Assembly: GCA_003194525.1 (NCBI GenBank)
Contig: NBIV01000343.1
Location: 1-64,000 of the forward strand
Reading direction: 5' to 3'
DNA from: Gracilariopsis chorda
Taxonomy: Eukaryota > Rhodophyta > Florideophyceae > Gracilariales > Gracilariaceae
DNA length: 64,000 nucleotides
The translations under genes were made by a program, and so were the position numbers. This document shows, in pieces, positions 1 through 63,263 of the stretch; position 1 is the first letter of the stretch; each line of letters starts with the position of its first letter. The notes beneath the pieces were generated by a model, which was not told the DNA's origin, did no database searches, and saw only the letters and a program-made list of their open reading frames with translations.

Positions 1-2
1 AA

Positions 3-26089: not shown

Positions 26090-26129
26090 CAAGCGCCCAG
26101 CCTGGGTGGGTGGCTCATGCCAGGTGGCA

Positions 26130-27825: not shown

Positions 27826-27830
27826 GTCGC

Positions 27831-36407: not shown

Positions 36408-36412
36408 CTGGG

Positions 36413-39640: not shown

Positions 39641-39797
39641 TATTCAGTTTTTGGCTTCTTTGTTGTGGAGAAATAATGCTGACAAAACTGTCTCTTTTGA
39701 CGCAATCAATTTTGGCCTCATGTGATGACATTGTTTGAAAAGACCTTGAATAGGACGTATGCGCAAGTTAATGGGTCGAGCGCACATATTCCCTCGT

Positions 39798-39849
39798 CCA
39801 TAGGATACTGGTGCGCATCCTATGGAAGAGGCGGTATCTGCGCAGCTAG
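39798..39849 (+). other. Possible Helitron 3' end: hairpin then CTAG
   Basis: CCATAGGAT (39798-39806) and ATCCTATGG (39817-39825) form a 9-bp hairpin. CTAG (a CTRR end) follows 20 nt later at 39846-39849. It lies downstream of the helicase on the same strand, as in Helitrons. Confidence 0.4.
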
Positions 39850-40493
39850 AAAACGCAACCGCATCGGAGTAAAGCCTATGCGAAACTAAGACTACGTCTG
39901 CAACATGTTATCAATAGAGGTAGACTACGTAGCTGCAGTTAAACACATAAAAACCGTAGTAGACTACAATAAACATAACTTCACAGACTCTTCTACGTTT
40001 TCTGCAGATCTCCCGATCTCCAACCAAGGTCATGGCCAACATTTTGCCTTCTGACGCTGCGAACGCGCTTAAACTTCTGGCTGAGACAACTTTGCAAACG
40101 CCAGCAACACATTGACGCTGCGCCCAGCACTCTCGCCCATCCCGATAGTAAGGAAGATTTGGGCTTTCAAAGCCCAATCTCCGACACTTTCTACAAGTAA
40201 GAAGGGTCGAAAACCCTTCTCCAAATGGGAAATGGTAATGCGTCAGAATTTCAACAGGTCCGGAATTTCTTGTCGACGTTTATACGTGACCACTGGAACA
40301 CGAGCCATGGAAAGAAATTTTTAGTTTCTGGGAAAGATGTTTTATTCATGATGCTGACTGTCGGTAAACACGGTGGTAAATGGGACTTTCTTGCCAATAT
40401 TTGCAAATGAAATGGATTACTTTTGAGCATGTAATCAACAAATGTATCGATATTATTGCAGTCGACGTGTAAGACGAGTTCTTTTTAGAAACG
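39850..40493. other. Spacer before element B
   Basis: No supported gene; short open frames only. Confidence 0.4.
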
Positions 40494-41288
40494 TGTAGTG
40501 AAATGCCCGGAAGTGGGAGTGCACCGAAAGACGTTCGGGATCTTTCCTCGTTAGAGGTGATCCCAGTTCGGTAGAGCCCTCCCAGGAGTGGCACGACTAT
40601 GTCGGGTTGTAAGGCCGAGGCCACGCGTTGCGACTTCCGCAGGGAGGTTGAGGCAAGAATCGGGTATCCGCAGGAGCGGTGTATGGGGGTGGTCGTCCTT
40701 TAGAGAGGTGAGGTTTCCACGTTGGTGGCAGGCGCGAACACGAGCCGTGGGTTGCGGGAAAGCCACCCTGTAAAGGGAAAAATAAGGTGGAGCGGAGTCA
40801 CAAGTGTCGTGACGAAGACTAACGGCAGTGCCGGTAAATAAACCTTATACAAGGCGAACACCCAGACAGCTCGAATAACAATCCGAATACTCGGGTTCTT
40901 TAGATAGGCAAGGGGGTTAGACTTCCCGTATGCGACGGTGCTTCCCTCCAAAGAGTAGTAGAGAACACGCGAAGGCAGTGAGGTCTAGAGCCAATATCCC
41001 AGGTTAGGATCCCTTGTTGGGGAAGGTTTACTGGGGCGACGGCAAACCGCCGGCGCACTAAGTACTAACCATCCCAGAAATGTGTGTAAAATAATAAATA
41101 GAATTAACTAAATTACTCCACTTTGGTGGTTCATGCCCACTACTGTGGCCAACCACCAATTGACTGTTCCGTCTCCCAAGTGTGAAATTCACTATTAGTG
41201 GTCGTAGTTCATGCAATCACTACATTGCCGAAACATTCGGGAAACCAACCAAGTACCAAGAATATCTCTCTGAGGGCATTGCACTTCA
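40494..41288 (-). repeat. Element B 3' LTR (795 bp)
   Basis: Pairs with 60956-61751. Its ends form an inverted repeat (TGTAGTG..ATGCCC against GGGCATTGCACTTCA, imperfect). Rich in small hairpins. The purine tract (complement of TATCCCCCTCC, 41289-41299) abuts its inner edge. Confidence 0.88.
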
Positions 41289-41344
41289 TATCCCCCTCCT
41301 TAGTCGGGAAAGCAACCGCGAACGCGGGCGAATCCCAGCGGAAA

Positions 41345-43160
41345 ATGGGTGATAAAAGTCCAAACCTCTCCGGGTCACCGGGTCAAGCCTCTGCCTCAGA
41401 GAAACAACCTCCTGCAAAAGTAGTAAACCAGCCTTCCACAAGTGCACGCTCCTCCTCTTTATGCTCAACTCAGTCAGATCACGCCCTTTCGAAGGGGAAC
41501 ATGAACAAAAAAAACAACCAGCCTCCAATACTGACTCCAGTCGGGAACTTTACAACCGGTTTCCAGTCGGTACCCTTGCCAAAAAGGAGGCAAACTCCTC
41601 CCCAGCTGGCCAACTTTGGCGCAGCGTCCCAGCATGGGTTCCAACTTCCAACAGCGGTGGCTCCTTTCAGACTGATCCCGGCGGCGACTTGGACTTCTCT
41701 TAACGCCCTTTTAGGTTAAATCCGATGAGTCAGAGTCACACCACTCGTCTCCGGCTTGCGCCGTGACACCATCCCATCGCTGCTTTCAACGAGGATTTGG
41801 GTACGGCCTACGCGAATGGTTCCGGTACTTTGCCCGGAGATCTACCCAGCCTCGTCACCTCGTCGTGGGACTGGCAGCATTCATTCGCCATCCCGGTGCA
41901 CCATATCCGAAGAAACTCGGGAGAATCCACGATTGCGGCTCATGCGGCGCTGGTGCGGATTGCATATCAACAGCAGAACCAAGCGCCTTTCGAATTCCCG
42001 GTGCCTACCGGCTTTGGCTTGGACGTCAGCCTATTCCGCACGCGCGGTGAAATCGGTTCCGGCGAACGCCTGGCCAGCCTTGAAACCCTCCCGTGGAGGA
42101 ACCTTCCCACTGCGCGGCAAGGAGCCCTGCGTTGGGAACCACTGATACTTCGGGCTGAGTTCCGGTTCCTTTCCCGGCAGTTGCGGTCTAACTTCCTCCA
42201 AAACTTCTTCCGTTATGAATGGCACTGGCGATCCCGATTTGGGTACTTTGTCCCGTATCAGAACGTGGAGATTGAGCGGATCGCTCCGCCTCACCGCCAC
42301 GGTCGGTACGTCGCACTACCCGATTGGTGGAGGTTCCATGAAGCCTGCCGGGGTTGCTACGTTGAGCTCCTGCGGGCACTCACGTACCTCGGTTCCTTAT
42401 GATTCAGGATCCCTGGTCGAGGCTTTGGTCAGTAATTGTAACCGAGTGGGCCGCCTGCACTGCGGCTTGTATCCTGGCTGATGTTTATGACCAGTATCGA
42501 CTGTGGTTCATCCAACCGCGTGTGCGGGCCGCTATTCGCAATCTGGACCTCAGCGTCCCCCTTTGGGGTATTGCCAATAATGACGAAGTATTCCACTTAC
42601 TTGGCTTGATCGACAGTATTGACCGGAGCGAGGTCCCCCTGGAACAGAGCGGTTGGCTTGACGTCGGCGGTGGCGATACCGTTGTTCCGGGTCTTGGTAG
42701 AAACACCGCCCTTGCGGGGGACTTCATCTAATTCGATCCCTGGGAGTTCCGGGAGATTTCCTCCAAGGAGGCAAAGGAACTCCGCGATGCACCGCGGCAC
42801 GTGCCGGACGACCACCCGATTGGGTACGTCGATTCCAACGATTACTACCGCGCGTATAGCGGGGATGACCCGATGGTCGATAAAGAACCCGAAGACCCGG
42901 GGGAAATTGAACTAGACGTTCCCGACATGGTCGTAGACGAATCTCCCGACGGTGTGCCTCTGGTTCCCAGTCCTCCAACGGCGAGCGGCGGGCCTTCACT
43001 CGCCAGCGGGGGTACAGTCAATGAAAGCGATATCATTGCCCGCTTCCTCCGCGGAGCGGGTTTAAGCGCTGCTGAAGTTTCGGGTGACGTTACCGCGATA
43101 GCGGATGCCTTGGCCTACCGCCTTGCGGGTGGTCACGCCCGGACGATGGGGAGGGGTTGA
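41345..43160 (+). pseudogene. Antisense accessory ORF set of element B
   Basis: Coding-like sequence on the strand opposite gag-pol. ATG 41345 (MGDKSPNLSGSP) opens a frame to 41719. A second frame runs about 41725-42402, with a TGA at 41764. A third runs 42399-43160, with a TAA at 42729. The second and third overlap as ATGA (42399-42402). The last part is acidic and ends with an Ala-rich helix (IIARFLRGAGLSAAEV). No homology recognised. It ends 35 bp before the pol-side stop codon, tail to tail. Element C keeps only the start of this gene (ATG 49475). Confidence 0.5.
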
Positions 43161-43195
43161 ACCTCTAATCCATTGTCCTGGTCTCTTTTCCTGGC

Positions 43196-45230
43196 CTAGC
43201 CGGTAATGTAGCTTAGCATCACACAGGAGGTCGAGGCTCCTGAGTAAACTTTCCCGTTTAGAATGGCGTTTTCTCTTTCATACCCGCCCTTGACGTAGTC
43301 CATACAAAAGGGGGTGTACTCCTTCTTTCCTACCTTCCCCGGCTTCGCGGCGTTTTTATCCCACTTGGGCGTTGCACAGCATAGCTGAATTTGCGGTACC
43401 CGCGCTGCGGTGATATTGGACCATCTTCGAACAAGGGAGGTGTTCGATGGGATCCATGGTGTCCCAGCTTGGGTCATATCCGTACCAACGGAGGCTGTAT
43501 CTTAGAATGCTTTCCTGATTCCAGGTCTGCCCGACGATTCGGTCAATCACAAACTCTTGTTTGTATACCTGCCGGCCTTGCCATGTTATAGTGACCTCGC
43601 TTGTCAGGGGTTGCCGATGGACGGGATATTTTCCCTCAGGGGTGCGTCTGGATGCAACGTGCCAGCTTCGCTCAAAGGATGCAGCACAGAGTGCCGAATA
43701 ATATCCCTCAAGAAGGTGTCTTCGTGGAACGGTTGCCACGTACAGCGGTAATTGGGTCGTACCGCTAGTTTGCGGGGGTCCTCCGTCCCTTGTTGACGGT
43801 AGTCCGGTCGAACCGCGAGCTTGCGGGCATCTTGCCGCTTTGGAGGAGTTGTGGAGGTCACTCTCCGGTCGAGCTTTCCGCGTCCCGTGGTGATTGGTGC
43901 GGGGCGCACAATCTCCGTACGTTCACGTGACTCCCACGGCATGTGGCTCTGAACCGCCTCCTTGCGTTCCGCCTCCCTTGGCTTGGGCCTTACACTGTCC
44001 GGCTGAGCCATGCACTGCTGTCTTGGCACCCAGTATCGGGCGGTTACTTCCGGTGCTCCGGTGTGTTGCCTCAAACTCCCTGATGGGGCGTGGACAGCTG
44101 GCGCCGTGGACACCCTGTTCGGGGACTTTGCCTCTAATTGAAGTGTGATGTCTTCCTCAAGAGGTGCATCATCTGGGAAGACCGGTTTACCCCTGGCAAC
44201 GACGGCGGATTTTTCCAAGGCGCTCGCTATATTACTGCGATTTCGTGGAGACTACGGCACTTCTATCTCCAAAGTTTGGACAACATTCCGGTTATGAACG
44301 GTTCTCAAGTCCTGGGCTGTAGAGCCAGGGATTTGAGTTCCAAGATGTGCATTCCTGCCTTCCTCCCTCAAGAGGGTCTTTTCACCTTCCAGCGTTGCTG
44401 GGTTTTTCAAGGCGTGCGTTGCCTGCTACCAGCGGTGTTAATGGTGCTGAGGAATCCGTTTTGGCGGGAAATTCCGTCGACGTCGGTTCTGCGACTACAC
44501 CCTCGTGAGGGGTCTGCGAAACTATATCGCTATCCTGATTCAGGGAATTGCACTGGTTCAGGTGTAGGGACTGCGATGTCGGTCCACTCTCCCGTACCAT
44601 ACGGTGTAACTGCGTTGTTCCGGAACCCTGTGTGGGGGATTGCGAGGCTCCATCAACCTTCCGTGTTTCACGGCTCAAATCCCTTTGCGACGGTAATAGA
44701 TTTCCAGCGTGACGATAGGTCCCCTCCCCCCCTTTAGACGGAGCAAGGGGAGTAATATTAGGATATCCCGCATGGCGGGAGTAAATCCGCGTCGCAGGGG
44801 CGGTAGTGTTATGATTAGAGAAAGGTCCGTTTCGACTTGAACGATCCGGCCGAGCCGTGGGTTCAGACAAAGTCGGTAAATCTGAGAGGCGCTGAGTAGG
44901 TTGTGGTAGAGTAGTCGGTCTATTTAGTCCCGGGGTTTCCGGCGTTGCTGAGTGCGTAGAGACGGGTTTCCCTGTTTCCAGGACGACCTCAGACGAGGGA
45001 GAAGGGGCAGGTACAACTCGATCGCGAGAAATCCGCTAGGGTGCCTTGCCCATTTCCATTACGACACTGTCGGAGTTAACGGATACCACTTTAAACGGTC
45101 CATCCGCCACAGACGAAAGCTTGTGACGCGTCTCCCATTTCGGGTTATAATATTTCTTAAGTATAAAGATGTAGGTATTAGCCCATATGCGGGGAGCATT
45201 ATCTCGTAAACGAGCGTAAAAATCACGCTT
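43196..45230 (-). pseudogene. Element B pol tail and chromodomain
   Basis: It follows the stop at 45231 in pol. About 45.2-43.75 kb encodes a Ser/Pro/Arg/Thr-rich variable tail broken by frameshifts. 43.56-43.42 kb encodes a chromodomain (VIDRIVGQTWNQESILRYSL, then RWYGYDPSWDT). Chromodomains at the integrase end steer insertion toward heterochromatin marks in chromoviruses. The usual TWEP is changed to TMDP. Confidence 0.72.
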
Positions 45231-47690
45231 TTACGCGGCTTGCGCGCGTTGCATAGACGTCCGTGCTGCGGGGACCAGTTTAGTAAGCCATTCTATCCAT
45301 TCCTGGCGGTAGCGACCCACAGATGGGAAATTGTCCAAGGTGGTTTGGGATTCTAACGCCGCAGGTGGGGTTGAACGAGATAGAACCAAGTCGAACGGTG
45401 ACACTTCGGTAGTCCGGTGAACTTGTGTATTGTATGCAAATGGTAAATGATCTGCATACAAGTCCCAAGTTTTGGGGTGATCAGCAACGTAGGAACGGAG
45501 AGAGGCCAACAAAGTCCGGGTGAACCGTTCGACTTGCCCATTGCACTGGGGACGGTAGATTGTCGTGAACAAGTTCTTCACGTCCAGGATGCGACAAACA
45601 TCCTGAAAGAACTTGGACGCAAACTGCCGTCCGTTATCAGAGAGCACCTTCACAGGAGGACCGTAGACAAAAATCCAGTGCGTTACCAGAGCCTGGGCCA
45701 CCGTGAAAGCGGTTATCCTCCGAAGAGGGACAGTACGAACAAGTTTTGAAAAGCGATCGGTGATCACAAGTAAGAACTTGTTGCCTCTCTTTGTAGTGAG
45801 GAGAGGTCCGAGAATATGGATTGCGATTAACTCGAGTGGCGCCCTAGCAGGTAATAAATTCATTTTATTCGCGTTCCTGCGGAGCTTCACCTGGTTCCTC
45901 GAGCATTCGGTACAAAACCGCACGGTTGCATAGCAATCAACCGCTATGGCGGGCCAGTACAAAGCCCTTCGCACGGTGAGGTAGAGCGTCCTCCCACCTA
46001 CGTGACCACCGAGCTTCGCATAGTGCGAGAGATGTAACACCCGCGACTGCAGGGAATGGGATACCACAATATGTGGGCGAGCTTCGACCAACCGAACGAG
46101 GTTCCCTTTATCATTCACCTCGAACGGGATGTCTTCGCCACCGTTTAAACGGGCACGAATTCTCATACAGAAGGGGTCAGAGAATTGTTCTCGGATCAAT
46201 TCCTCCGGTGAAACCAGTACAAAACTTCCCGGTAAGGGGTTCTCAGGGGTCTCACAGGATGCGAGTAAGTTGTCAAAGTCAGCATCTTCATCCCACTCTT
46301 CTGGCCATTCCTTGAACTTCCACTCCGTGTCATCCGGTTCTTCAACCATGAAGCATAGAATGTCGTCATCCTCCGTTGGGAGTGCTTCCTCATTTGTGGG
46401 TAAACGCGACAAAGCGTCGGCCTGGGTGTTGAGCGCCCTCTTTTTATATATGACTAGGAAGTCATATTCCGCAAGGCGGAGTCTCCAGCACATAAGGCGG
46501 CCCGTGGGATCGGATATGTTCATTAACCACCTCAACGAGGAATGATCCGTGTATACGGTAAATTGAACTCCCATAAGATAGGGGCGTATGGTGGAAAGCG
46601 CCCACACGACGGCGAGACACTCTTTCTCCGACACAGAGCAATTCCGCTCGTGGACATTGAGCGACCCTGACCAATAAACAATTGGCCTTCGGTCCACCTC
46701 TGGGGTAGTTCGGAAAAGAACACAACCTTGGTAGTCGCTCGAGTCCGTGTCCGCGGAGTATGGGAGTCCCAGCTTGGGTGAAGATAAGATAGGTGCTGAC
46801 GTGACAGCCTCCTGTAAGGAGTTAAACGCTTCCCATTGCTCGGGCGTGAATTGTCCCAATTGTGGGGGATTTACTTTGCGTAACAACGCGTTCAACGCTG
46901 CCGCGATATCCGAAAAGTTCGGGATAAACCGTCGGTAGACGTTGAACAGCCCTAAAAAGGAGCGGAATTCCGTTTGAGTGCGTGGTTCCTTAGCCCCAAC
47001 GAGGGACTTGACTCGAGCCTTGTCGATCATTAACCGTCCCGGACGAATGATATGTCTCAGATGCTTGACAGTATCTGTGAAGAACTCGCACTTCCCCAAC
47101 TTGAGGGTAATTCCCGCATCGTGGAGCATGGTCAGAACGTCTCTGAAATGGGTGAGATGGTCGTCCAAATTGTTGGAGAAGATGATAATATCATCTGGGT
47201 AGACCAGGCAGCTCCGCCACTTGAAGAGGTTCAATAGAATATCTATTGCACGCTGAAAGGTAGCGGGAGCGTTGGTCAAACGAAACGGCATCCGCTTGAA
47301 GTGGTACGATCCTACGTGGCAGGTGAACGCGATCTTATCGCGATCTTCCTGTCTAACCGAGACCAGCCAATAACCCCAATTGGCGTCCAAAGCCGTGAAC
47401 ACGGTAGCGTCTTCAAGGGAGTCGATGCACTCGTACATACGAGGGATGGGATATGTGTCCCTAACAGTGATGGCATTGAGCCAGCGATAGTCAACACAGA
47501 ACCTCCAGGTTCCGTCGGCCTTCAAAACCAGTACAACTGGAGATGACCAGGGTGATTGAGTGGGCTCTATTACACCTGCGCGGAGCATTTTGTCCATTTG
47601 GGACTGCTCCTCTTCCCGAGGGTTTGGTCCTGCCTTGTAAGGTTGGGCCATCGGACGTGCACCCGGTAACAAATCTATCCGGTGTTACGT
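45231..47690 (-). pseudogene. Element B reverse transcriptase, RNase H and integrase
   Basis: An 814-codon open frame. RT: RFCVDYRWLNAI, FTALDANWGYW, MPFRLTNAPATFQ, and the catalytic box reads YPDD (complement of about 47188-47199) where family members have Y-hydrophobic-DD, so activity is doubtful. RNase H: DTDSSDYQG, SEKECLAVVWAL, TDHSSLRWL. Integrase: zinc domain CTECSRNQ, then IHILGP (the first catalytic Asp is changed to His), SDNGRQF and NGQVERF. It is preceded by an in-frame TAA (about 47690) and ends prematurely at AQAA-TAA where element C continues KRDF. Confidence 0.88.
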
Positions 47691-48592
47691 AGCATTAATC
47701 TTGCCGAGCGATCCATCCCTCTTCGTGGTAAATTCCCGTAGCATTGCACAGAGTTTGTCGCGGTGTGACTCCGGCACATGGCCGAGGTCTATATCTTCGA
47801 GTGCCTTTATGGGTTCCATTCGGTCAGAACGCGCTGTAACATTGTCCTGTGATACCAGTGTGGCCGTCGTTTCCGAGTTATTCGGGGTGTTCGATTGTTA
47901 AAACAACGGTTTCCTCTCCCTACTTAGACGATAGTTCGTCAGTGACGGGGATGGATTCCTCAGAAGAGACGGCAATTCAGAGAACATCGGCGGTCGTCAT
48001 CTTCTTCGGGAGCAACCAAGGGGGTGTAGAGTGACGCTTCCAATTACTTGGTTCTTTACCAGATACTGGGGGCGTTGGCTAAGATTGGCAACGAGTATCC
48101 GGAAAGGAGCATCCGGGGTAACGTGAACAATTCCGTTTGCCAGCGCGAGCTGGTATACCACGTATAAAGAGGACAGAGGTTGAATAACCCGAAGACCGTG
48201 TTTACGGCAATTGAGCTCCACCCAGACTTGGGACTCAGGCCGTATAGAAACAGAGGCTGCGACTCGAAGTTTGATGGACTCGCAAGACGCGGGCGGTGGT
48301 TCCTGCGCAGCATGTAGTGGGACTTGCTTCTGCAAAGCACGCTTCAGCGGGCGACGGATGATCGGGACTGACGATTCGTCGTCGAGATCCACACGCCTTA
48401 GGCTGGGCCTGATTGCGTCGACAAATCTTTCGCAGTAATCTCATCCCAGTATGACTGGAGCGGCCAATGACTGACAAACAATAAAGTCGAGCTTCACCAC
48501 GGAGGTGCCCAACCGCACGACTAAGTCGACGGTACCCACCGTTTTTAACGGATTGTTGTTCGCATCTGCGACGTTGGGAACCGTTTCGGAAC
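47691..48592 (-). pseudogene. Element B protease, 3' part (downstream of the element C insertion)
   Basis: It resumes at the duplicated GGAAC with codons matching element C's protease (VPNVADANNNPLKTVGTVDL). It ends in a frameshift near 48000 and stops. The in-phase match to 58342-58668 shows that one gene was split by the insertion. Confidence 0.85.
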
Positions 48593-49419
48593 TGTGGTGC
48601 AATGCCCCAAAGGGGAAAAACACCGAAAGACGTTCGGGATCTTCCTCTCACGAGGTGAACACAGTTGGATAGAGCCCTCCCAGAGGTGTCATGGCGAGGC
48701 CGGTTTGTAAGACCAGGGACACCTGTCGCGACTCGCGCAGGGAGGTGAAGGCGAAGAATCGGTATCCGCGTGAGCGGGGTGTCATCCTCAGTAGAGGTAT
48801 GTTTCCACGTAAGTGGTGGTGTGTGAGCGGATGCGCACACGATGGCCGCGGGTAGCGGGAGGTGCTACCCTAAAAAGGGGGAAAAGGAAGGGCGAAGAGG
48901 AGGAAGAGAGGACGATGTGAAATGCGAGAGCGACGGGCAGATACAGCAATGCCGGTGGACAGGACTCCCTATACAGGGCGAAACACCAATATGATTGGAA
49001 CAATTATACTCCCAAGGATGGGCTTCTTTAGATGTGCAAGGGGGTTAGAAGTCCCGTGGTTTACGGCGTTTCCCTCCAAGGAAGAGTAGAGTACGCGCGC
49101 AAGCGGCAACAACTAGAGCCAATTCCCCAGGTTGGGGTCCCTTCTTGGGGAAGATTTACTGGTGCGACGGCAGTGCGCCGTCGCACTAAGTACTAGCTTC
49201 CCAGAAATGGGTGTGAAAATAATAAATAATATTAACTAAAATACTCCACATTTCGTGGCAACATCCACTATTGTGGCCAACCGCCAATTGACCCAAAACC
49301 GTGTCCCACGTGTCCATACCCACCATTGTGGGGCGTAGTTCATATACACACTACACAACCGATAATATCGGGAAAGCGTTCAAGTACCAAGAATCCCTCC
49401 CTGAGGGCGTTGCACTACA
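48593..49419 (-). repeat. Element C 3' LTR (827 bp)
   Basis: Same length as 57515-58341, with scattered differences. Its inner edge abuts the purine tract AGGGGGGGAAA (complement of 49420-49430). Confidence 0.92.
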
Positions 49420-49555
49420 TTTCCCCCCCTAAGACGGGAAAACGACCGTGGACGCGGAGGGTTCCCAGAGGAAAATGGGTGATAAAAGCGCGTACGCCCT
49501 CTCCGGTTCTTCTTTCCTGGGATAGCCGGCTATTGTAGTATAGTGTTGTGGGGAG

Positions 49556-50060
49556 CTAGCTGCTCCCTTGAATAAACTTTCCCGTTTTGAACGGTGATTC
49601 TTGTTTGAGTTCCCCGTCTTCGACGGACCTTGCCTTGTTATCCTTTCTTATCGCCCTCCGTTCGCGCGGCAACGTTACCCAACTTGGGCATTTACCAGCG
49701 TGGCTGGAGCTGCAGTTCCCGTTTGACGGTGGTATCCCACGACCTGCGACCGTGGGAGGTGTTCGAATGGCTCCCACGTATCCCCACTGGGGTCATACCC
49801 GTACCAGCGCACGCGGTATTGTAGAATACCATCCTGGTCCCAGGTGTGTCCGACAAGTCGGTCTACTACGAACTCTCGTTCGTAGACCTGCCGGCCGTGC
49901 CGGGTGGTGGTTGTACTTCCTTGCGGGGGCTACCCGCTGTGCAGTATAATGTCCCTTAGCAGGGTGTTCGGCGATAACTCCGGCGTTGCCGTGCGCTGTG
50001 ATAGCGGCCGCTGCTCATGCGGGAAGATATCCCTCAAGAGGGTGTGTGGTGCCACGGTTT
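49556..50060 (-). CDS. Element C chromodomain region
   Basis: The chromodomain lies at about 49.89-49.75 kb: VDRLVGHTWDQDGILQYRVR, then WYGYDPSGDTWEPFEHL, with the expected aromatic cage region and TWEP. It lies beyond the TGA that ends the 999-codon pol frame (50061), in another frame reached through 50301-49930, so a further frameshift or unusual expression is required. A basic tail ends near 49556. Confidence 0.68.
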
Positions 50061-53060: not shown

Positions 53061-54293
53061 CCATACGACGGCGAGGCACTATTTCTCCGATACGGAGTAG
53101 TTCCGCTCATGAACATTGAGCGAGCGCGACCAATAACCAATTGGATGTCGTTCCCCCTCGGGGGTGGTTTGAAAAAGAGCTCACCGGACTTGGTAGTCGC
53201 TCGAGTCCGTATCTACGGAGTATGGCAACCCAAGTTTTGGGAGATGTAGGATTGGTGCTGATGTGACAGCCTCCTTCAAGGAGTTAAAAGCTTCCGATTG
53301 TTCGGGCGTAAATGGTCCCAGTTTTGGGTGGTTCCCCTATCGCAACAACGCGTTCAGGGGCGCCGCAGTATCCGAAAAGTTCGGGATAAACCGTCGATAG
53401 ACGTTGACCAGCCCCAGAAAGGAGCGCAGTTCCGTTTGAGTACGGGGTTCTTTCGCCTCAACGAGGGATTTGACTGGAGCTTTCTCGATCGCTAACCGTC
53501 CAGGACGGATAATGTGACCCAGATACTTCACAGTATCTGTGAAAAACTGGCATTTTCTCAACTTGAGGGTAATTCCAGCATCGCGGAGTACGGTCAGCAC
53601 GTCTCGGACGTGAGTGAGATGGTCGTCCAACGAGTTGGAGAAGATGATAATATCATCAAGGTAGACCAAACAACTCCGCCACTTAAAGCGGTTGAGTAGA
53701 ACATCTACTGCACGCTGAAAGGTGGCGGGGGCGTTGGCTAACCCAAATGGCATCCGCTTGAAGCGGGACGTTCCTGCATGGCAGGTGAATGCGGTTTTGT
53801 CGCGATCCTCCTGTCTGACAGGTACTTGCCAATATCCCCAATTGGCATCAAGTGCCGTGAACACGGTGGCGTCTCCAAGGGAGTCAATGCACTCGTCCAT
53901 ACGAGGGATGGGGTACGTGTCCCTAACAGTCACGGCATTGAGCCGGCGGTAGTCGACACAGAACCTCCAGGTTCCGTCGGCCTTTAAAGCCAGTACAACT
54001 GGGGATGCCCAGGGTGATTGAGCGGGCTCAATCACACCTGCGCGGAGCATCTTGTCCACTTGGGACTGCTCCTCTTCCCGAGCTTTCGGACCTGCCCTGT
54101 AAGGGGGTTGTGCAACCGGTCGCGCACCGGGGATTGCTCGATGGAGCATTGTCCTGTGGAACAGGTGTGGTTCGCAATTCCGAGTTACTCGGTATGTTCG
54201 ACGCTGAAGTAGCGGTTTCCTCCCCCTCCTTAGACTTGACGTCTTCGGACGGCGGGGCGAACTCCTCAGAAGAGTTGGTAACTCCGAGTACAT
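53061..54293 (-). pseudogene. Element C reverse transcriptase and RNase H start
   Basis: RT with VDYRRLNAVTV, FTALDANWGYWQV, MPFGLANAPATFQ and catalytic YLDD (complement of about 53653-53664). An in-frame TAG at 53337-53339 (after LNALLR) and another in the RNase H (EK-TAG-CLAVV, about 53082) interrupt it. Neither shifts the frame. Coding resumes in the 50061-53060 frame. Confidence 0.88.
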
Positions 54294-55217
54294 CGGCGGC
54301 TGTCATCTTTGTTGGCAGCATTCCCATAGGATGGGGGGTTACACTCCAAATTACTTGGTGTTTTACCAGATACTGGGGGTGTTTGCCAAGGTTGGCAACC
54401 AATATCCGGAAAGGGACATCCGGGGAAATGGAGACAATTCCATTAGCGCCAGCTGGGATTTCTCGTACAACGAGGCGAGGGGTTGTATAACCCGAAGACC
54501 GTGTTGACGGGAATTTACCTGCACCCAGACTTGGGACTCAGCCGGTATAGAAACAGAGGCAGCGACGCGGAGCTTGGTGGACTCGCGGGACGCGGGCGGC
54601 GGTTCCTGCACAGCAGGGAGCGGAACTTGTTTCCGAGAGGACCGCTTTAGCGGGCGGCGAACAATCGGAACCGACGATCCGTCGTCAAGTTCTACACGCC
54701 TGAGGCGGGGCCTGATTGCTTCGACAAATCTGTCGCAGTAATCACAACCCAGTATGACTGGTGCTGCCAATGAACGGCAAACGATGAAGTCCAACTTCAC
54801 CACAGAGGTACCAAGTCTCACGACGAGGTCCACTGTGCCCACCGTTTGTAACGGATTGTTGTTCGCATCCGAAATGTCGGGGACCGCGTCAGAGCGGATA
54901 CCAGACCGCACAAGCGGGGTTAACAATGCTTTCACAACAAAGTTGGGGCCTGCACCTGTATCCAGGACGGTGAGAAACCTCACCATAAACTGGGGGTCAA
55001 GGCCAAGGTCGGCATAGACCTTATAGTTGCGCTTGGCCAAGACCAAGACTCTACCGGGAATCCGGGGAGTTTTACTCCGTATCCACGGGCGACGCAACAC
55101 ACCGAGGTGCGCAGAGTCCGCGTCAGCGGTGTCTTTCCTCGAGAGGACTTTCACCGGGGAGCGAGGCGAGGACGCCTCGGGCGCCAACAGCCTCGTTCTT
55201 GAGGACGCCTCTCCCAA
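54028..55217 (-). pseudogene. Element C aspartic protease region
   Basis: The active site is LDTGAGPNF (about 54945-54970). VILGCDYCDRFVEAIRP marks the later conserved part. The frame shifts near 54447 relative to element B and continues as ILVANLGKHPQY in another frame toward the RT. It lies in a different frame from gag, so Gag-Pol would need frameshifting. Confidence 0.82.
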
Positions 55218-55234
55218 AGGGGAGACTCCCTCAG

Positions 55235-56509
55235 TTAGTTTTCCGCCTTCGGCGGTGGGTTGGTTTCCTCGACAACGAGTGCTTCATCCCGTTGACAGGG
55301 GTTTCTATCCGCATAAGCGGGGTTTGCAACGGATGGTTGCGTGATCTCCCGAATCGGGATGTATGAAGCTTGCCGCGCACGCGGGGTCTGTGGTAGGGCG
55401 TGGGAAAAGTCCGTTTTAGCACGGAGGTAGGAAGCCGTCGGGACGGAACGTTTCTCCTCTGGAGTGAGGGCCTCATAATTTGCCACCACCTTGGACATAT
55501 CCTTCAGTGAACAAATACACTGAGGAGAGGTATGGCCATGGGCATAACACAGGTGGCAAATGAGAGCCAGCACCGCGACACCCGGATTATTATTCCGAGT
55601 ATCGGAGAAGCGAACCGCAGGGCGGGTGTCAGTCCATCCAGGCCGTTGATAACGGGATTGACCGTTTGAAAACGGGAGTCGTTGGGGTTGAACCCGACTG
55701 TTACCACCGTATAGAACGGGATCTTCTGTTCCCGTATCATGGGTCATCTCCGTCGTTGACGGTAACTCACTGGTGGGTATCGACACACCATCCTCCTGCA
55801 CTAAATGCACGGTATCAAATCCCTGTCCAGGGTTCCCATCCGCGGTGAGCGGGAGAGAGGAAGCTTCGTTTTCCAGCAACAACGCCTTGGCGGATTTAGA
55901 CCGATTGTTCGGAGTTCTTGCACGAAGTGCATCCCCTTCCGCTCGGGCGTGTTGGACCAGCTCGAGGTAGGTGATCCTCCGCTTTTCCTCCCGATAACGG
56001 GTAACTAAACTCCGGATTGCCGGGTCAAGACCATCAATGAACATGGTACTGCGCTTCCCAGCGGGGTATACGTTACCACATCTGTAGAAAGCCTTGTTAA
56101 GGCGCACCGAGTAATCGGTCTCGGTCTCTCCAGCACGCTGGCGTGTATCTCGCAAAGCGAGGATAGCCTGCTGAATAGCGTTGTTGGTGGCGTAGGAGCG
56201 CAGAAGATACTGCACAGCCTCCGGCCAGCAAGTAACTCCTCCCTCGGAGGCGCGAGAAGATCCTCTGACAGAGGTGTATTGGTCCTCCGCCACTCCCCGT
56301 AAGAAATACGGTAAAGCCAAATAGGCTTGTCCCTCATTCATACCGAGGATATCGGCTTCCGCTACAAAGCGGGATAGGACATCCAGTACTAGGACTGGGT
56401 CCTCTCCAGTAAAATACTGGTTGCGGAGCGAGAGCTGCATTCGCTTAATGCATTCTCGCACCTTTCCCGTACCACGGGGCGTACGTCCAAGTGACAAATC
56501 TTCGAGCCG
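55235..56509 (-). CDS. Element C Gag, capsid and zinc-knuckle part
   Basis: An uninterrupted frame of 420 codons (first ATG 56497). It contains the retrotransposon Gag core (ALPYFLRGVAEDQY, CWPEAVQYLLRSYA, YSVRLNKAFYRCG) and one zinc knuckle CHLCYAHGHTSPQC (CX2CX4HX4C), which packages the RNA. It lies in the same frame as the upstream ORF, separated by a single TAG. Confidence 0.87.
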   Translation of the reverse strand, partial: RLEDLSLGRTPRGTGKVRECIKRMQLSLRNQYFTGEDPVLVLDVLSRFVAEADILGMNEGQAYLALPYFLRGVAEDQYTSVRGSSRASEGGVTCWPEAVQYLLRSYATNNAIQQAILALRDTRQRAGETETDYSVRLNKAFYRCGNVYPAGKRSTMFIDGLDPAIRSLVTRYREEKRRITYLELVQHARAEGDALRARTPNNRSKSAKALLLENEASSLPLTADGNPGQGFDTVHLVQEDGVSIPTSELPSTTEMTHDTGTEDPVLYGGNSRVQPQRLPFSNGQSRYQRPGWTDTRPAVRFSDTRNNNPGVAVLALICHLCYAHGHTSPQCICSLKDMSKVVANYEALTPEEKRSVPTASYLRAKTDFSHALPQTPRARQASYIPIREITQPSVANPAYADRNPCQRDEALVVEETNPPPKAEN

Positions 56510-57409
56510 CTAGTACCGGTATGATAAAAGCTTCCGGTAATCTGGGTTTGTCGGTTTCAATTCCCGGAGACCGGGGTGTCTTCTCCCCTTCTGGCGGGTT
56601 CGGACCACACCTTCAGTGGCCGATGACCGCTTCGAGCGGGAGGAGTAGCCTCGCTTCTCGTCCTCCGAGTCGGAGTCCGAGGAGCTCGAGCTAACCGAAT
56701 GGTTTCGGGATGAGTCCGACGATGTCGAAGAATCGGAGTCCGAATATTTTCGGTGGTGTTTCCGTCGATGACGGCGTTTCTTCTTCCCGGCAAGCTGGTC
56801 GTTGTGCGATGCCTCGTTCACCGGATCATCCGGGGATGGTTTTTCCATGAGGAAGAACTGCTCCAGCGTCTCCAGGTGGGCACCAATCCGATCAAATCGG
56901 GCTTCAACTCCTTCGATGAAGGTGGCGGGTTGTCCCAAACTCTCCAACACGGAGTTGACGTCAGACCGTAAAATACGGAGTTCCTCGGCGACCTCCTTTA
57001 CGGGGGTTGCCGAGACCACCTCTTGGAGGGATTTTAGTTCCCCTACAAGGGTGTCGTGGGCGGTCCACAGAGCGCGGACCTGGGATTCCAGGGAAGTCCC
57101 CTGGGGGGTGTTATCGCCCGTTCCACGGGGGCTTGAAGCCGCGACAGCGGGAGCAGGCCGGGGTGCCTGGGGCACTGCGGCAACAGCCGGAGTCGATGCT
57201 GCATTCCCCTGTGGGGGTGATAACGAGGGCAAAAGGAGGTTCCGGGGTTCCCGGTCGGGGGTATCATTCCGCGATGAAGCGGCGCCAGCACGGCTGGAAC
57301 TTGTCCGTAAAGGGATACGGGGTACGAACCGAACTTCAGATGTGTCCGCGTTGTCGCGGGAGCGACTACGCGTAACCACTGGCTCCGCATCGGAGCGATT
57401 TCTCGACAT
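56510..57409 (-). CDS. Element C Gag N-terminal ORF
   Basis: 299 residues from ATG 57409. Low-complexity N-terminus, a coiled-coil-like middle (LWTAHDTLVGELKSLQEVV), a Lys/Arg/His-rich stretch (KKKRRHRRKHHRK) and a Ser/Asp run. It ends SYRY-TAG and the same frame continues as RLEDLSLG into the Gag core. Probably a matrix-like or RNA-binding part. Readthrough of the TAG is inference. Confidence 0.8.
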   Translation of the reverse strand: MSRNRSDAEPVVTRSRSRDNADTSEVRFVPRIPLRTSSSRAGAASSRNDTPDREPRNLLLPSLSPPQGNAASTPAVAAVPQAPRPAPAVAASSPRGTGDNTPQGTSLESQVRALWTAHDTLVGELKSLQEVVSATPVKEVAEELRILRSDVNSVLESLGQPATFIEGVEARFDRIGAHLETLEQFFLMEKPSPDDPVNEASHNDQLAGKKKRRHRRKHHRKYSDSDSSTSSDSSRNHSVSSSSSDSDSEDEKRGYSSRSKRSSATEGVVRTRQKGRRHPGLRELKPTNPDYRKLLSYRY

Positions 57410-57493
57410 GAGAAAATACCGTTACGACGGGAAACGATCACAAAACTTCCAGTGAATGAAAACAAACCTCGTAAGAGGGAAAACAAAAACCGA

Positions 57494-57511
57494 TTCTAGG
57501 TCGGGAGACCA
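57494..57511 (-). promoter_or_regulatory. Element C primer-binding site
   Basis: TGGTCTCCCGACCTAGAA on the minus strand, 3 nt from the LTR edge. Its complement reads as a tRNA 3' end (T-loop TTCGATT-like, T-stem CTAGG, acceptor TCGGGAG, A, CCA). Confidence 0.82.
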
Positions 57512-57514
57512 CTT

Positions 57515-58341
57515 TGTGGTGCAATGCCCCAAAGGGGAAAAACACCGAAAGACGTTCGGGATCTTCCTCTCACGAGGTGAACCCAGTTGGGTAGAGCCCT
57601 CCCAGAGGTGTCACGGCGAAGCCGGTTTGTAAGACCAGGGACACCTGTCGCGACTCGCGCAGGGAGGTGAAGGCGCAGAATCGGTATCCGCGTGAGCGGG
57701 GTGTGATCCTCACTAGAGGTATGTTTCCACGTAAGTGGTGGTGTGTGAGCGGATGCGCACACGAGGGCCGCGGGTAGCGGGAGGTGCTACCCTAAAAAGG
57801 GGGAAAAGGAAGGGCGAAGAGGAGGAAGAGAGGACGATGTGAGTCGCGAGAGCGACGGGCAGATACAGCAATACCGGTGGACAGGACTCCCTATACAGGG
57901 CGAAACACCAATATGATTGGAACAATTATACTCCCAAGGATGGGCTTCTTTAGATGTGCAAGGGGGTTAGAAGTCCCGTGGTTTACGGCGTTTCCCTCCA
58001 AGGAAGAGTAGAGTACGCGCGCAAGCGGCAACAACTAGAGCCAATTCCCCAGGTTGGGGTCCCTTCTTGGGGAAGATTTACTGGTGCGACGGCAGTGCGC
58101 CGTCGCACTAAGTACTAGCTTCCCAGAAATGGGTGTGAAAATAATAAATAATATTAACTAAAATACTCCACATTTCGTGGCAACATCCACTACTGTGGCC
58201 AACCGCCAATTGACCCAAAACCGTGTCCCACGTGTCCATATCCACCTTAGTGGGGCGTAGTTCATATACACACTACACAACTGATAATATCGGGAAAGCG
58301 TTCAAGTACCAAGAATCCATCCCTGAGGGCGTTGCACTACA
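57515..58341 (-). repeat. Element C 5' LTR (827 bp)
   Basis: Starts TGTGGTGCAATGCCCC and ends GGGCGTTGCACTACA. It contains more than twenty 4-9 bp hairpins, the largest being GTGCGACGG/CCGTCGCAC near 58084-58108. Confidence 0.92.
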
Positions 58342-58668
58342 GGAACGGATACGAGACCACACCTGTGGGGGTAGAAATGATTCCACGATGAAGTTGGGGC
58401 CTGCACCTTTGTCCAGGAATGTTAGAAATCTCACCATAAAATGGATGTCAAGGCCAAGGTCGGTGTAAACCTTGTAGTTGCGCTTGGCCATGACCAAGAC
58501 TCTATCCGGGATCCGGGGTTTTTTAATCCGTATCCACGGGCGACGCAGCACAGAAACGTGTGCAGAGTATGCGTCTGCGGTGTCCTTCCTTGAAATGATT
58601 TTCACCGGGGAGCGAGGCCGCGACGCCTCGGGCGTCAACAGCCTCATCTCTGAGGACGCCTCTCCCAA
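58342..58668 (-). pseudogene. Element B protease, 5' part
   Basis: The region matches element C's protease up to the insertion point. The active-site motif reads DKG (LDKGAGPNF, about 58400-58418) instead of DTG, so it would be inactive even without the insertion. Confidence 0.85.
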
Positions 58669-58685
58669 AGGGGAGACTCCCTCAG

Positions 58686-59969
58686 TTAGTTTTCCTGGGA
58701 GGTTCTCGCTGTAGGCGGTAGTCCAGGATCCTCGACCACGAGAGCTTCGTTCCGGGGGCCGGGGTTTTTATCCGCATAAGTGGTGGTTGCGTCGGACGTG
58801 TGCGCGACTTCCCGACTAGGGTTAATTGAAGCTAGCCGCGCACGCGGGATATGTGGCAAGGCATGCGAGAAGTCCGTTTTAGCACGGAGGTAGGAAGCCG
58901 GCGGAACAGAAAGTTTCTCCTCTGGAGTGAGGGCCTCGTAATTTGCCACCACCTTGGCCATACCCTTCAGTGAGCAATGACTCTAAGGGGATGTATGGCC
59001 ATGGGTGTAGCAAAGGTGGCAGATTGGAGCCAACACGGCGATGCGCCGGTTAATATCCCAAGCATCGGAGAAGCTTACCGCCGGGCGGGTGTCATTCCAT
59101 CCAGGCCGTTGATAACGGGATTGGCCGTTCATAAATGGGACTCGTGGCGGCTGAACGAAATGGTTCCCCACGTACAATACGGGGTTGTGCTGCGCCGTTT
59201 TGAACGTGTCCTCCGTCTTTGACGGAAAATCCGTGGTTAGTATAGACACACCATCTCCCTGTGCAAAATGCACGGTGTCGTATCCCTGTTTGGGGGTTCT
59301 ATCCGCAAAAAGCGAGGACGATGAGGAGTCACTCTCCAGCACCAACGACTTGGCGGGCCTAGACCGAGGATTCAGAGTTCTGGCACGAAATGCTTCGCCT
59401 TCCGCTCGAGCATGTTGAACAAGCTCGAGATAGGTGACCCACCGCTTGTCCTTGCGGTAACGAGTGACAAGACTCCGGATTGTCGGGTCAAAGACATCTA
59501 TGAACATGGTACAACGTTCCCCTGCGGGGTATGCATTCCCACAACAGTGGAAGGCGTTGTTAAGGCGCACCGAGTAATCCGTTTAAATCTCGCCTGAGTG
59601 CTGACGATTATCTCGCAAAGCGAGGATTGCCCCCTGAAGGGCGGTATTGGTGGCATAAGAGCGCAATAAATATTGTACTGCCTCCGGCCAGCAGGTTACT
59701 CCTCCCTCTGAGGCACGAGATGATCCTCTGACAGAGTTGTACTGTTCCTCTGCCACTCCCCGTAAGAAATACGGTAATGCCAAATAGGCTTGTCCCTCAT
59801 TCATTCCGAGGATATCGGCTTCCGCTAAAAAGCGGGAAAGAAAGTCCAACACCATAATTGAGTCTTCTCCAGTAAAATACTGGTTACGCAGTGAGAGTTG
59901 CATACGTTTTATGCACTCTTTCACCTTACCCGTGCCACGGGGTGTATGTACTAAAGAGGAATCTTCGAG
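58686..59969 (-). pseudogene. Element B Gag, capsid and zinc-knuckle part
   Basis: Collinear with element C's Gag. In-frame stops occur at about 59583 (TAA, in GEI-TAA-TDYS) and at 58983 (TAG within the zinc knuckle, HTSP-TAG), which removes its last Cys. No frameshift. Confidence 0.85.
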
Positions 59970-59975
59970 CCAGTA

Positions 59976-60839
59976 TTACCGGTACGGCAATAGTTTCCGA
60001 TACAACAGGTTCGTCGATTTTAATTCCCTGAGGCCAGGGTGTCTTCTCCCCTTGCTGCAGGTCGGTATCCCATCTTGGGTGACGGATGACCGCTTAGAGC
60101 GGGAAGAACGGCCTCGTTTCTCGTCTTCCGAATCGGAGTCCGAGGAACTAGAACCATCTGACCCGTTTCGGGATGGATCCGATGATGTCGTAGAATCAGA
60201 ATCCGAGTGATCTCGTTTGTGTTTCCGCTTATAGCGGCGCTTCTTTCTTCCAGCATGCTGGTCTTGATGTGACGCAGCTGGTGCCGGATCATCCGGGGAC
60301 GGTTTATCCATGAGAATAAACTGCTCTACCGTCTCCAGACGGATACGAACTCGATCAAATCGTGAGTCAACCCCTTCTATGAAGGTGGCAGGTTGCCCCA
60401 AACTCTCTAACATAGAGTTGACATCGGACCGTAAGATACGGAGATCCTCTGCCACCACCTTTATAAGGGTGTCCATCACCACCTCACGAAGGGTTTGTAA
60501 TTCCCCGACAAGGGTGTCGTGGGCGGTCCACAAAGCGTGAAACTGAGATTCCAGGGAATTCCTCTGGGGGGTGTTATCGCCCGTCAGACAGGGTCCAGGT
60601 GCTTCGGCAGCCACGGCCGGAGCCGGATTAGTACCATCCACAGCATTCGATAACGGGGTCGACGTGGAGTTTCGGGGTTCCCGGGGTGGGTTTGGAGTCC
60701 TAGACGAGGCACACCCAGCATGGCTGGATTTAGCCCTAGTCGGGATCCGAGAAACGAACCGAACTTCGGGGTTATCTCCAACATTTTGGGAGCGACTGCG
60801 CGTTGTCACAGGCTCCGCAGAGGAAGGCTTCCTCGATAT
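59976..60839 (-). pseudogene. Element B Gag N-terminal ORF, start codon lost
   Basis: Homologous to 56510-57409. The start ATG of element C corresponds to ATA here (60839-60837). It ends LPYR-TAA; the frame then continues YWLEDSSL, similar to element C after its TAG. Confidence 0.82.
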
Positions 60840-60934
60840 GAGGGCCAAACGTTTCGACGGGAAAACTACGGAACTTCCGGAAAACAAACAGAAGAAAGAA
60901 AAACTCAAAAGAGGGAACCAAATACCAAACCCGA

Positions 60935-60952
60935 TTCTAGGTCGGGAGACCA
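60935..60952 (-). promoter_or_regulatory. Element B primer-binding site
   Basis: Identical 18-mer to the element C site, again 3 nt from the LTR. Confidence 0.82.
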
Positions 60953-60955
60953 CTT

Positions 60956-61751
60956 TGTAGTGCAATGCCTGGAAGCGGGAGTGCACCAAAAGAAGTTCGG
61001 GATCTTTCCTCGCTAGAGGTGAGCCCAGTTGGATAGAGCCCTCCCAGGAGTGGCACGACTATGTCGGGTTGTAAGGCCGAGGCCACCCGTCGCGACTTCC
61101 GCAGGGAGGTTGAGGCAAGAATCGGGTATCCGCAGGAGCGGTGTATGGGGGTGGTCGTCCTCTAGAGAGGTGAGGTTTCCACGTTGGTGGCATGCGCGAA
61201 CACGAGCCGTGAGTAGCGGGAAAGCCACCCTGTAAAGGGAAGAATAAGGGGGAGAGGAGTCACGAGTGTCGTGACGAAGACTAACGGCAGTGCCGGTAAA
61301 TAAACCCTATACAAGGCGAACGCCGAGACAGCTGGAATAACAATCCGAATACTCGGGTTCTTTAGATAGACAAGGGGGTAAGACTTCCCGTATGCGACGG
61401 TGCTTCCCTCCAAAGGGGAGTAGAGAACACGCAAAGGCGGTGAGGCCTAGAGCCAATTTCCCACGTTGGGGTCCCTTGTTTGGGAAGGTTTACTGGGGTG
61501 ACGGCAACCCGCCGGCGCACTAAGTACTAACCATCCCAGAAATTTGTGTAAAAATAATAAATAGAATTAACCAAATTACTCCACTTTGGTGGTTCATGCC
61601 CACTACTGCGGCCAACTGCCAATTGACTCCTTCGTGTCCCACGTGTTAAATCCACTATTTGTGGTCGTAGTTCATGCAATGATTACATTACCGAAACATT
61701 CGGGAAATCAACCAAGTACCAAGAATCCCTCTCTGAGGGCATTGCATTTCA
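60956..61751 (-). repeat. Element B 5' LTR (796 bp)
   Basis: Pairs with 40494-41288 and shares hairpin positions with element C's LTR, with different loops. Confidence 0.88.
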
Positions 61752-61815
61752 AAATCGACGTCCACTCGTCTCTGCAAAACACATATCGAGAAGAATAAGG
61801 AATTTATATAGTTTA

Positions 61816-62374
61816 TGGATGCACGCTACGCCATTGATGTTACTTTTCAGCAATCGTACGGTCCATCGGGAAGTGTTGAAGAAGGGAAAAATATTCTAAT
61901 AGAAAGTATAAGCTTTACGGATTTAAGATTTAAGTGTCTGTGCTACCGAATGGTTTGGCATTTGGATGCTTTAATCATTACCCTGGATCAGTAACGAATG
62001 TGGATATTCTGCATGAAAATTTTGAAAATTTTCACGCAGTTGCTTTGAAAGAGACAAATTCGGAGAGGAATATTATAAACATTGGATTTTAATCTGATGA
62101 GAACGAAAATTATTGGGCTGTACTCTTTGCAAAAAGAATATCAGGGAGTAAATGAATTTTGCAGGGCTAAGCATCCCAAACGGAAGCCAAAAAAACGGGT
62201 TCCTTAGTTTGGATGATAAAAGTGAAAATAAAAAACCTTCATCGGATCTTATTATCGTCAAAAATTGTTTTCGTCGCTTTTCCAATATGTAGTCTATTTT
62301 GTCTTTCAAAGTTAGATGGAAGGAACAATCGTATGACAAAATTTTTAAATTTTGTCTTGGAATGACGAACATGC
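61816..62374 (+). pseudogene. DDE-superfamily transposase remnant
   Basis: Starts near ATG 61816 (MDARYAIDVTFQQSYGPSG). It continues through EEGK, YKLYGFK and VSVLPNGLAFGCFNHYPGSV, then NYWAVLFAK and, in another frame, SDLIIVKNCFRRFSNM and KIFKFCLGMTNMHV. The motif order matches a family of DDE transposases widespread in algae and oomycetes. Several stops and frameshifts are present, and part of the catalytic region is lost. Confidence 0.62.
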
Positions 62375-62654
62375 ATGTGAATTTTCATCCGCTCCCAAAC
62401 ATCGATGGAGAGTTTTATGTGCATGTCATGAACAAAAAGTAGGCTATAAGGGTGAAAATTAGAAAACAAAGATTGACTATCCAAAAATGTCGCAAAACGC
62501 GGCAGCGCCACTTGAACGATCAGTTTCATAACGTTACGAGCGATGAGGAGACGCTAGATCCGCGTTGTTGATTGAAAAGTACGTAATTTTGAGTTTTACT
62601 GGTGTGTTTAGCTAACAACGCTAGTACTACACTTTATGAAAAGTTTATAAGTAA
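62375..62654. other. AT-rich spacer
   Basis: No gene or repeat recognised. Confidence 0.4.
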
Positions 62655-63170: not shown

Positions 63171-63263
63171 AAACAGCGGTGAGGAAGAAAGAGGGTGGAG
63201 AAAGCAAAAGCAGAAAAGCAAGTAGTTTAATTCAATGAAAGAAGAATGCAAGAGATATGATTA

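Follow-up and report, generated by a model that had tools for sequence, protein, structure and literature searches.

Why should a retrotransposon carry the same small hairpin again and again, through its genes and its noncoding parts alike? The question is raised by a 64,000-nucleotide stretch of DNA from Gracilariopsis chorda (contig NBIV01000343.1, positions 1 to 64,000; hereafter the window), which contains two related Ty3/gypsy-type long terminal repeat (LTR) retrotransposons, here called B and C and assigned from their LTRs and the order of their pol domains. Element C (48593-58341) is nested inside B (40494-61751), and gag-pol of both lies on the minus strand. Coordinates are 1-based, on the forward strand, within the window; genome searches covered the 91.3-Mb assembly of 1,081 contigs. 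An earlier note on the window had described B and C as saturated with micro-hairpins in coding and noncoding DNA. This is borne out: hairpins exceed shuffled sequence throughout both elements, in a sharper form than described. In plan the elements are ordinary LTR retrotransposons, and the hairpin overlay is the unusual part. We are confident that it is a selected motif that works as a single-strand hairpin. The overall reading that we put forward, and consider about as likely as not, is that the hairpins may be reiterated protein-binding sites on the element RNA, perhaps packaging signals for Gag.

We counted stems of at least 5 bp (or at least 4 bp) with loops of 3-8 nt against local dinucleotide shuffles; the counts that follow are for at least 5 bp unless stated otherwise. 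Between 49510 and 57500, C has 145 such hairpins, against 43.6 in shuffles (z 15.7). The pol side of B has 52 against 27.5 (z 4.0), its gag side 36 against 13.4 (z 6.4), and the two LTRs of C have 10 against 4.0 and 9 against 3.8. At two places in B there is no clear excess of these stems and an excess of stems of at least 4 bp: 40494-43160 (18 against 14; 97 against 55.4) and 60930-61751, the 5' LTR (4 against 4.1; 35 against 17.6). Element A, used as a control, shows no excess (35 against 35.8), nor does 35500-40490 (26 against 25.9); two further controls give 87 against 74.4 (12500-29000) and 21 against 15.5 (61752-64000). Element A and the PLE of the window had both been described as free of such hairpins. 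This is right for A, whereas the PLE region has a mild excess (91 against 63.1) without a peak at short loops. The hairpins of the PLE region differ in kind from those of B and C: there (1-12500) long stems are in excess, with 31 of at least 6 bp (15.7 in shuffles), 18 of at least 7 bp (4.1) and 4 of at least 8 bp (1.0). Longer inverted repeats, e.g., GCGGCGCTGCGCGCCGC and GGGGCGCCGCGGCGCCC, were also seen by eye in a G+C-rich stretch outside the element, at 62661-63160.

Is the excess a by-product of the encoded proteins? Shuffles that leave both protein and codons unchanged give z-scores (stems of at least 5 bp) of 3.9-8.4 in five open reading frames (ORFs) of C, and in B of 4.8 and 2.7 in two ORFs and 3.1 and 1.6 in two plus-strand ORFs. 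The controls stay near or below zero in the ORFs of element A (-0.9, -0.9, -0.4) and in two others (-0.7, -1.0); the PLE ORF gives 1.8. Codon usage and amino acid order are ruled out as the cause by these shuffles. The comparison that the earlier note had proposed, of B and C with dinucleotide and codon-preserving shuffles and with element A, thus comes out with the higher hairpin density in B and C.

What kind of hairpin is in excess? The earlier note spoke of loops of mostly 3-7 nt, which is too wide a range: in C the excess lies at loops of 1-5 nt with a peak at 3 (61 hairpins with 3-nt loops against 8.6), it is gone at 6-9 nt, and stem plus loop mostly measure 11-14 nt. The table of stem by loop length for C has two peaks, at 4 bp on 4 nt (79 against 20.6) and at 5 bp on 3 nt (52 against 5.2), while for 6 bp on 3 nt the count is 5 (against 1.4). 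Among stems in C of at least 5 bp on a 3-nt loop, 48 of 74 open with CC, where 1.0 is expected and the next most frequent opening, CT, has 7. Because the CC opening is so dominant, we take as the main unit a motif of CC, two or three more Watson-Crick pairs, a loop of 3-4 nt, the complement and GG, 11-14 nt in all. An example of the dominant size is CCCGT-acc-ACGGG (56466-56478; 5 bp, 3 nt). By this definition C with one LTR (48593-57514, minus strand; 8,922 nt) has 166 motif hairpins against 12.0 in shuffles, and the pieces of B, pooled, have 72 against 7.4. The LTRs share in it, with 15 against 0.77 in the 5' LTR of C (counted over 57515-58340) and 12 against 1.33 in that of B. The sites quoted in the earlier note are correct in letters and coordinates at all six that were checked, and include hairpins outside this class. 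CCGTA-agaaa-TACGG (56297-56311) has a loop of 5, and the 9-bp hairpin at 54014-54035, offered as the strongest case, is real and atypical.

The pairing inside the motif is essential to the excess. When both inner pairs are formed, the spacing CC-N8-GG is found 69 times (5.0 expected), and when three are, CC-N9-GG is found 50 times (1.2 expected); without any inner pair the same spacings are little above chance (41 against 35.8 and 40 against 28.1). An unpaired CC/GG spacing, such as a dimer site on duplex DNA might have, is ruled out, as the excess needs the inner pairing. Of the 166 hairpins, 17 could be extended by one more pair at the outer end, where 38.1 are expected from the flanking letters. 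The outer pair is thus avoided, and stem length is capped. Neighboring hairpins are also kept apart: among 182 gaps a single one measures 0-3 nt, where 17.4 are expected. The note's statement that the geometry is conserved while the arms differ is right and incomplete, since CC...GG ends, a size cap and biased flanks are found as well.

Where does the motif occur? Every 500-bp bin from 40501 to 62000 contains 1-14 motifs, while the three bins before B (39001-40500) and the four after it (62001-64000) contain none, giving hard edges at the element borders. Within the elements the motif ignores coding function. The three codon phases of the C ORFs carry 45, 41 and 38 motifs (3.8-5.9 each in codon shuffles), and noncoding or other parts are affected too (11 against 1.1 after the pol ORF of C; 25 against 3.6 in B 40494-43160). 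In the rest of the window up to B (1-40400) there is a slight excess, 30 against 20.5, and 30 further gag loci elsewhere in the genome, 98 kb in all, show no enrichment, 36 against 33.8. Neither supports a genome-wide mutation bias. Among the lineages examined, the motif is a property of B/C.

A search of related elements in the same genome, also proposed in the note, finds the motif dense in C-type gag and pol copies. Each of eight gag loci (4,272 nt) has 81-90 motifs and each of 28 pol loci (about 5.4-5.5 kb) has 95-109, i.e., 17-21 per kb or about one per fifty letters. Density is higher in these copies than in the older B, and two B-type pol loci have 61 and 48 motifs. Four B-like gag pieces (867-870 nt) contain 14, 10, 14 and 5 stems of at least 5 bp, against 2.9-3.6 in codon shuffles.

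We then asked whether the motif is preserved or merely produced, by comparing B with C at third codon positions. For hairpins defined in C, stem positions are identical in 226 of 278 cases (0.81) and linkers and flanks in 956 of 1,534 (0.62; p = 2e-10), with loops at 63 of 111 (0.57). For hairpins defined in B, the values are 94 of 108 (0.87), 717 of 1,156 (0.62; p = 5e-8) and 23 of 41 (0.56). The identity expected for stems, matched by base and codon position, is 0.65 in both definitions, and stem first and second positions also exceed their matched values. The CC...GG letters themselves are kept in 380 of 434 cases in hairpins and in 157 of 200 where CC...GG is equally spaced and unpaired (p = 0.004). 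A motif hairpin stands at the same place in B for 64 of 162 hairpins of C, 51 of them with other letters, and at the same place in C for 62 of 84 hairpins of B. Some letters were replaced with the pairing kept, e.g., CC-GTC-atc-GAC-GG in C for CC-GCT-ata-AGC-GG in B, or CC-GTA-aca-TAC-GG for CC-GTG-aaa-CAC-GG. Three pol loci were compared in six directions: where a stem pair had changed, both sides had changed with pairing kept in 11-26% of cases, whereas for complementary pairs outside hairpins that had changed the figure was 3-8%.

Variation within the family separates new mutations from those that have passed through replication, if singletons are taken as mostly younger than insertion. We used the 28 C-type pol loci, leaving out the two B-type loci, and the eight gag loci. 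Singletons are equally frequent in stems and linkers, both in pol (0.1215 and 0.116 per site) and in gag (0.0357 and 0.036), with Fisher p = 0.92 for stems versus the rest, so the excess of new stem mutations that template switching would predict is not found. Variants common to at least four pol copies, in contrast, avoid stems: 0.0024 per site against 0.012 in linkers and loops (2 of 831 stem sites, 57 of 4,624 elsewhere; Fisher p = 0.006). Pol variants common to two or three copies lie between, at 0.0229 per site in stems, 0.0277 in linkers and 0.0512 in loops, and for pol and gag together, variants common to at least two copies occur at 22 of 1,559 stem sites and 219 of 8,166 others (Fisher p = 0.0024). 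Because singletons are equal and older variants avoid stems, the mutation rate of stems is ordinary and selection acts during replication of the element. This shows that the motif is kept by selection acting while the element replicates.

On which strand does the hairpin act? Before the 238 motif hairpins the base is C in 106 cases, A in 72, T in 43 and G in 17; the complement of the base after the hairpin is C in 40, A in 63, T in 110 and G in 25 (asymmetry p = 3e-13). The 5' flank is thus mostly C or A and the 3' flank A, which are not mutually complementary. The bias is present in all three codon phases, in the LTRs and in other parts outside gag-pol. The asymmetry speaks for the coding-sense strand as the acting strand.

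The elements that carry the motif are built as follows. C has LTRs of 827 bp (3' LTR 48593-49419, 5' LTR 57515-58341, both minus strand) that differ by 18 mismatches in an ungapped alignment, start and end with TGTGG...CTACA, and are bordered by a target-site duplication, GGAAC, at 48588-48592 and 58342-58346. B and C do not stand side by side: C is inserted within B, with this duplication. A putative primer binding site, TGGTCTCCCGACCTAGAATCGG (57490-57511, minus strand), and a putative polypurine tract, AGGGGGGGAAA (49420-49430, minus strand), were judged by eye. The same TGGTCTCCCGACCTAGAATCGG letters adjoin the 5' LTR of B, so that the putative primer binding site is common to B and C. The edges of B are found as well (3' LTR 40494-41288, 5' LTR 60956-61751, both minus strand): 40494-40793 is repeated at 60956-61255 with 94% identity, and its outer flanks, AAACG and AAATC, are not identical. 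The insertion of C cut the gag side of B (58347-60955, minus strand) off from its pol side (43160-48592, minus strand), where the Pfam order in 45231-47684 is RVT_1, RNase H, H2C2 and rve, that is, reverse transcriptase, RNase H and integrase. B and C are 77% identical in gag and 80% in pol.

In this copy the gag of C (55235-57421, minus strand) is split into ORFs of 303 and 424 amino acids; in most gag matches scored it is one open frame of 728 amino acids. The first ORF contains a basic tract, KKKRRHRRKHHRK, and the second a CCHC knuckle, CHLCYAHGHTSPQC. A Pfam scan of the B and C ORFs gave no match to a gag family, the gag sequence had a single, chance-level match (E 0.73) among solved structures, and the structure prediction for Gag was unusable (pLDDT 34). 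The pol of C (50061-55283, minus strand) is in pieces here, with reverse transcriptase in one ORF (53337-54302) and RNase H, H2C2 and the integrase core in the next (Pfam), which runs with a long tail through 50061-53078; an open frame of 1875 amino acids is present in 17 of the 55 pol matches listed. By eye, P, S, R and E abound in the post-integrase tail (50061-51297, minus strand), and motif hairpins number 12, 10 and 13 in the three 500-bp bins of 50001-51500, some of the highest counts in the window. Comparison of the reverse transcriptase piece with viral contigs confirmed no relative. Besides the window, 98 places match the gag of C, mostly at 95-97%, among the 99 of 2,439 candidates that were scored, so the C-type family is both large and young. 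On one contig (C183), gag matches lie mostly about 4.77 kb apart, from 74551 to 126971, an arrangement that suggests tandem copies of a different LTR element.

B has in addition an ORF on the opposite strand between pol and the 3' LTR (41346-43160, plus strand), which in this copy is open in three different frames. Its longest open piece (41767-42402, plus strand; 211 amino acids) has no match in Pfam or among the sequences of solved structures, and is repeated in the genome, with all 150 scored matches (of 1,218 candidates) at 70% identity or more. Many relatives have open antisense frames of about 609-629 amino acids. The frame lies 2.3-3.0 kb beyond pol in at least 20 of the 55 pol matches listed, and on the strand opposite to pol in all 20 cases paired by eye among these; it is thus kept between pol and the 3' LTR in many copies. 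In the C of the window no more than 641 nt separate the pol ORF from the 3' LTR, and the antisense frame is absent. Motif density in B is 8.3 per kb in the antisense-ORF region and 6.7 per kb in 45000-48592 of pol. Extra antisense ORFs in the interval between pol and the 3' LTR are described for the plant LTR retrotransposons Grande, RIRE2 and Retand (PMC7264820), to which the B/C family is likened by position and strand. The words "hairpin" and "secondary structure" do not occur in the main text of that review.

What could such a motif be for? Free loops, fixed ends, fixed height and neighbors kept apart together suggest a repeated docking site, and from its sequence features we consider the motif probably a binding site for a protein. 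The hairpins would be active in single-stranded nucleic acid, and the genomic RNA of gag-pol sense is the most likely form. The protein would read the CC/GG pairs that close each hairpin and the combined height of its stem and loop, would ignore the loop letters, and would need a few unpaired nucleotides between one hairpin and the next. The binder may be encoded by the element itself and would then most likely be Gag, which is the first candidate because of its basic tract KKKRRHRRKHHRK and its CCHC knuckle. Free loops and a spread over the whole element would also fit a coat-type role better than one in translation or splicing. The reiterated sites could then be dispersed packaging and assembly signals, with which Gag selects and condenses its own RNA in a virus-like particle. 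We advance this role in packaging or assembly tentatively, its chances being slightly below even. More speculative, and rather doubtful as yet, is the picture of a second code superimposed on the one for protein, in which some 170 or more hairpins would form a ruler-like coat address and Gag would coat or select the RNA bead by bead.

Several observations weigh against this reading of the hairpins as protein-binding sites on sense RNA. Part of the flank bias follows from a mild excess of C and A in the coding strand. A flank model trained on C picks the sense strand in 93 of 135 other B/C motifs and also in 19 of 30 motifs that occur by chance elsewhere in the window; since these lean toward sense too, this count alone settles nothing. 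RNA should tolerate G-U pairs, yet near-misses with G-U number 36 (18.7 expected) and those with A-C 58 (21.5 expected; p = 0.12), and changed pairs likewise show no preference for G-U over A-C. Global folding is weak: in 120-nt windows the mean z of C is -1.33 for sense and -1.08 for antisense, with -0.38/-0.67 in B pol, -1.53/-0.32 in B gag and -0.21/-0.28 in element A. The mean pairing probability of motif stems is only 0.44-0.47 in sense and 0.38-0.42 in antisense; with shuffled linkers the sense value hardly moves (0.41-0.49). The weak folding and the missing preference for G-U would be compatible with a role in RNA if a protein held the hairpin, or if the hairpin were needed in both strands. 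Nor is loop recognition of the MS2 or hepatitis B virus (HBV) type seen: third positions in loops are conserved at 0.56-0.57 against 0.62 in linkers, and loop letter tables give no strong consensus. Spacing among the hairpins is near random apart from the avoidance of short gaps, with no regularity found. Finally, for 98 of the 162 hairpins of C the corresponding position in B lacks a motif, perhaps because this copy of B has decayed.

Which other explanations deserve weight? Of the two causes that the earlier note proposed, selection for single-strand structure is supported by the comparisons above, and a template-switching habit is not sufficient. A reverse transcriptase that switches templates would perfect small palindromes without any function, and this would suit inner arms that tend to perfection down to a loop of 3-4 nt, the lack of favor for G-U, and the presence of the motif in LTRs and all codon phases. 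However, correction alone would be expected to swap both partners of a pair, not to reduce divergence, and at third positions the divergence of stems is at most about half that of linkers; stems are also capped rather than lengthened. With the equal singletons, and the avoidance of stems by variants in four or more pol copies, this rules out template switching as the sole cause, and a mutational origin is the least probable of the alternatives, a very small chance in our view. Selection at the level of DNA, on hairpins in minus-strand complementary DNA or on a duplex palindrome bound by integrase or a chromatin protein, is improbable to a slightly lesser degree. Loops of 3-4 nt suit DNA hairpins, and near-misses of A-C type, which become G-T in the minus strand, are no rarer than those of G-U type, although the difference is not significant; but a dimer bound to duplex DNA would have no need of inner letters that vary yet stay complementary around free loops, and the flanks are not symmetric between strands.

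Two further explanations place the hairpins in RNA without Gag. They might help the element evade silencing, by hindering sense-antisense pairing or by shielding it from small-RNA guides if formed in both strands. Antisense RNA is plausible because many copies carry an antisense ORF, and the formation of Watson-Crick stems in either strand would account for the missing tolerance of G-U; yet nothing in this calls for CC/GG ends, a size cap or oriented flanks, and we think it quite unlikely. Recruitment of a host RNA-binding protein in place of Gag, for export, stability, translation or hiding in granules, is unlikely too, though it has the best chance of these alternatives, as the same sequence evidence fits it and the data do not name the binder. 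Against it, the 30 other gag loci show no excess, and those elements therefore do not use such a host factor in this way; the density, moreover, seems far above what one export or stability element would need. Binding by Gag stays our first candidate.

How does such an overlay compare with known systems? In the open-access literature we found no retrotransposon or LTR element with uniform hairpins along its whole length. In genome-scale ordered RNA structure (GORS), it is the folding energy as a whole that is in excess. B and C resemble the GORS of RNA viruses, in those aspects of it considered here, in having pervasive stem-loops over coding sequence, but their energy z-scores are modest, neither shows a strong genome-wide folding-energy excess over shuffles, and the signal is one size-restricted motif. 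By analogy, the closest known way of working is that of dispersed packaging signals. Single-stranded RNA viruses (MS2, satellite tobacco necrosis virus, parechovirus) and HBV have many small dispersed stem-loops, proposed as contacts of the coat protein (PMC6281560). B and C likewise have many related small stem-loops over one genome, conserved as structure. The letters recognized are (x)xYA in the loop with a 5' bulged A in MS2 (PMC6281560) and RGAG in the loop in HBV (PMC7612645). Unlike these, B and C have free loops and fixed stem ends, in a retrotransposon and at 17-21 per kb in the C copies read.

Packaging signals dispersed over RNA virus genomes are few per genome and degenerate, and are therefore hard to tell from ordinary structure. 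The B/C signal is about fourteen-fold over chance, with hard edges, uniform size, a signature of selection and at least 99 scored copies in the family. Such a family would open to direct study the reading of an entire RNA genome by a capsid protein, and would show how far protein-coding sequence bends to a second code; other genomes can be scanned simply, for CC, two or three pairs, a loop of 3-4 nt and GG. In Ty1, the structures for packaging and dimerization are near the 5' end (PMC5454406). With Ty1 and retroviral psi, B and C would share a cis-acting RNA used by an LTR element in packaging, for B and C a proposed role; but where those signals lie near the 5' end, C has well over a hundred copies of one motif along its entire length.

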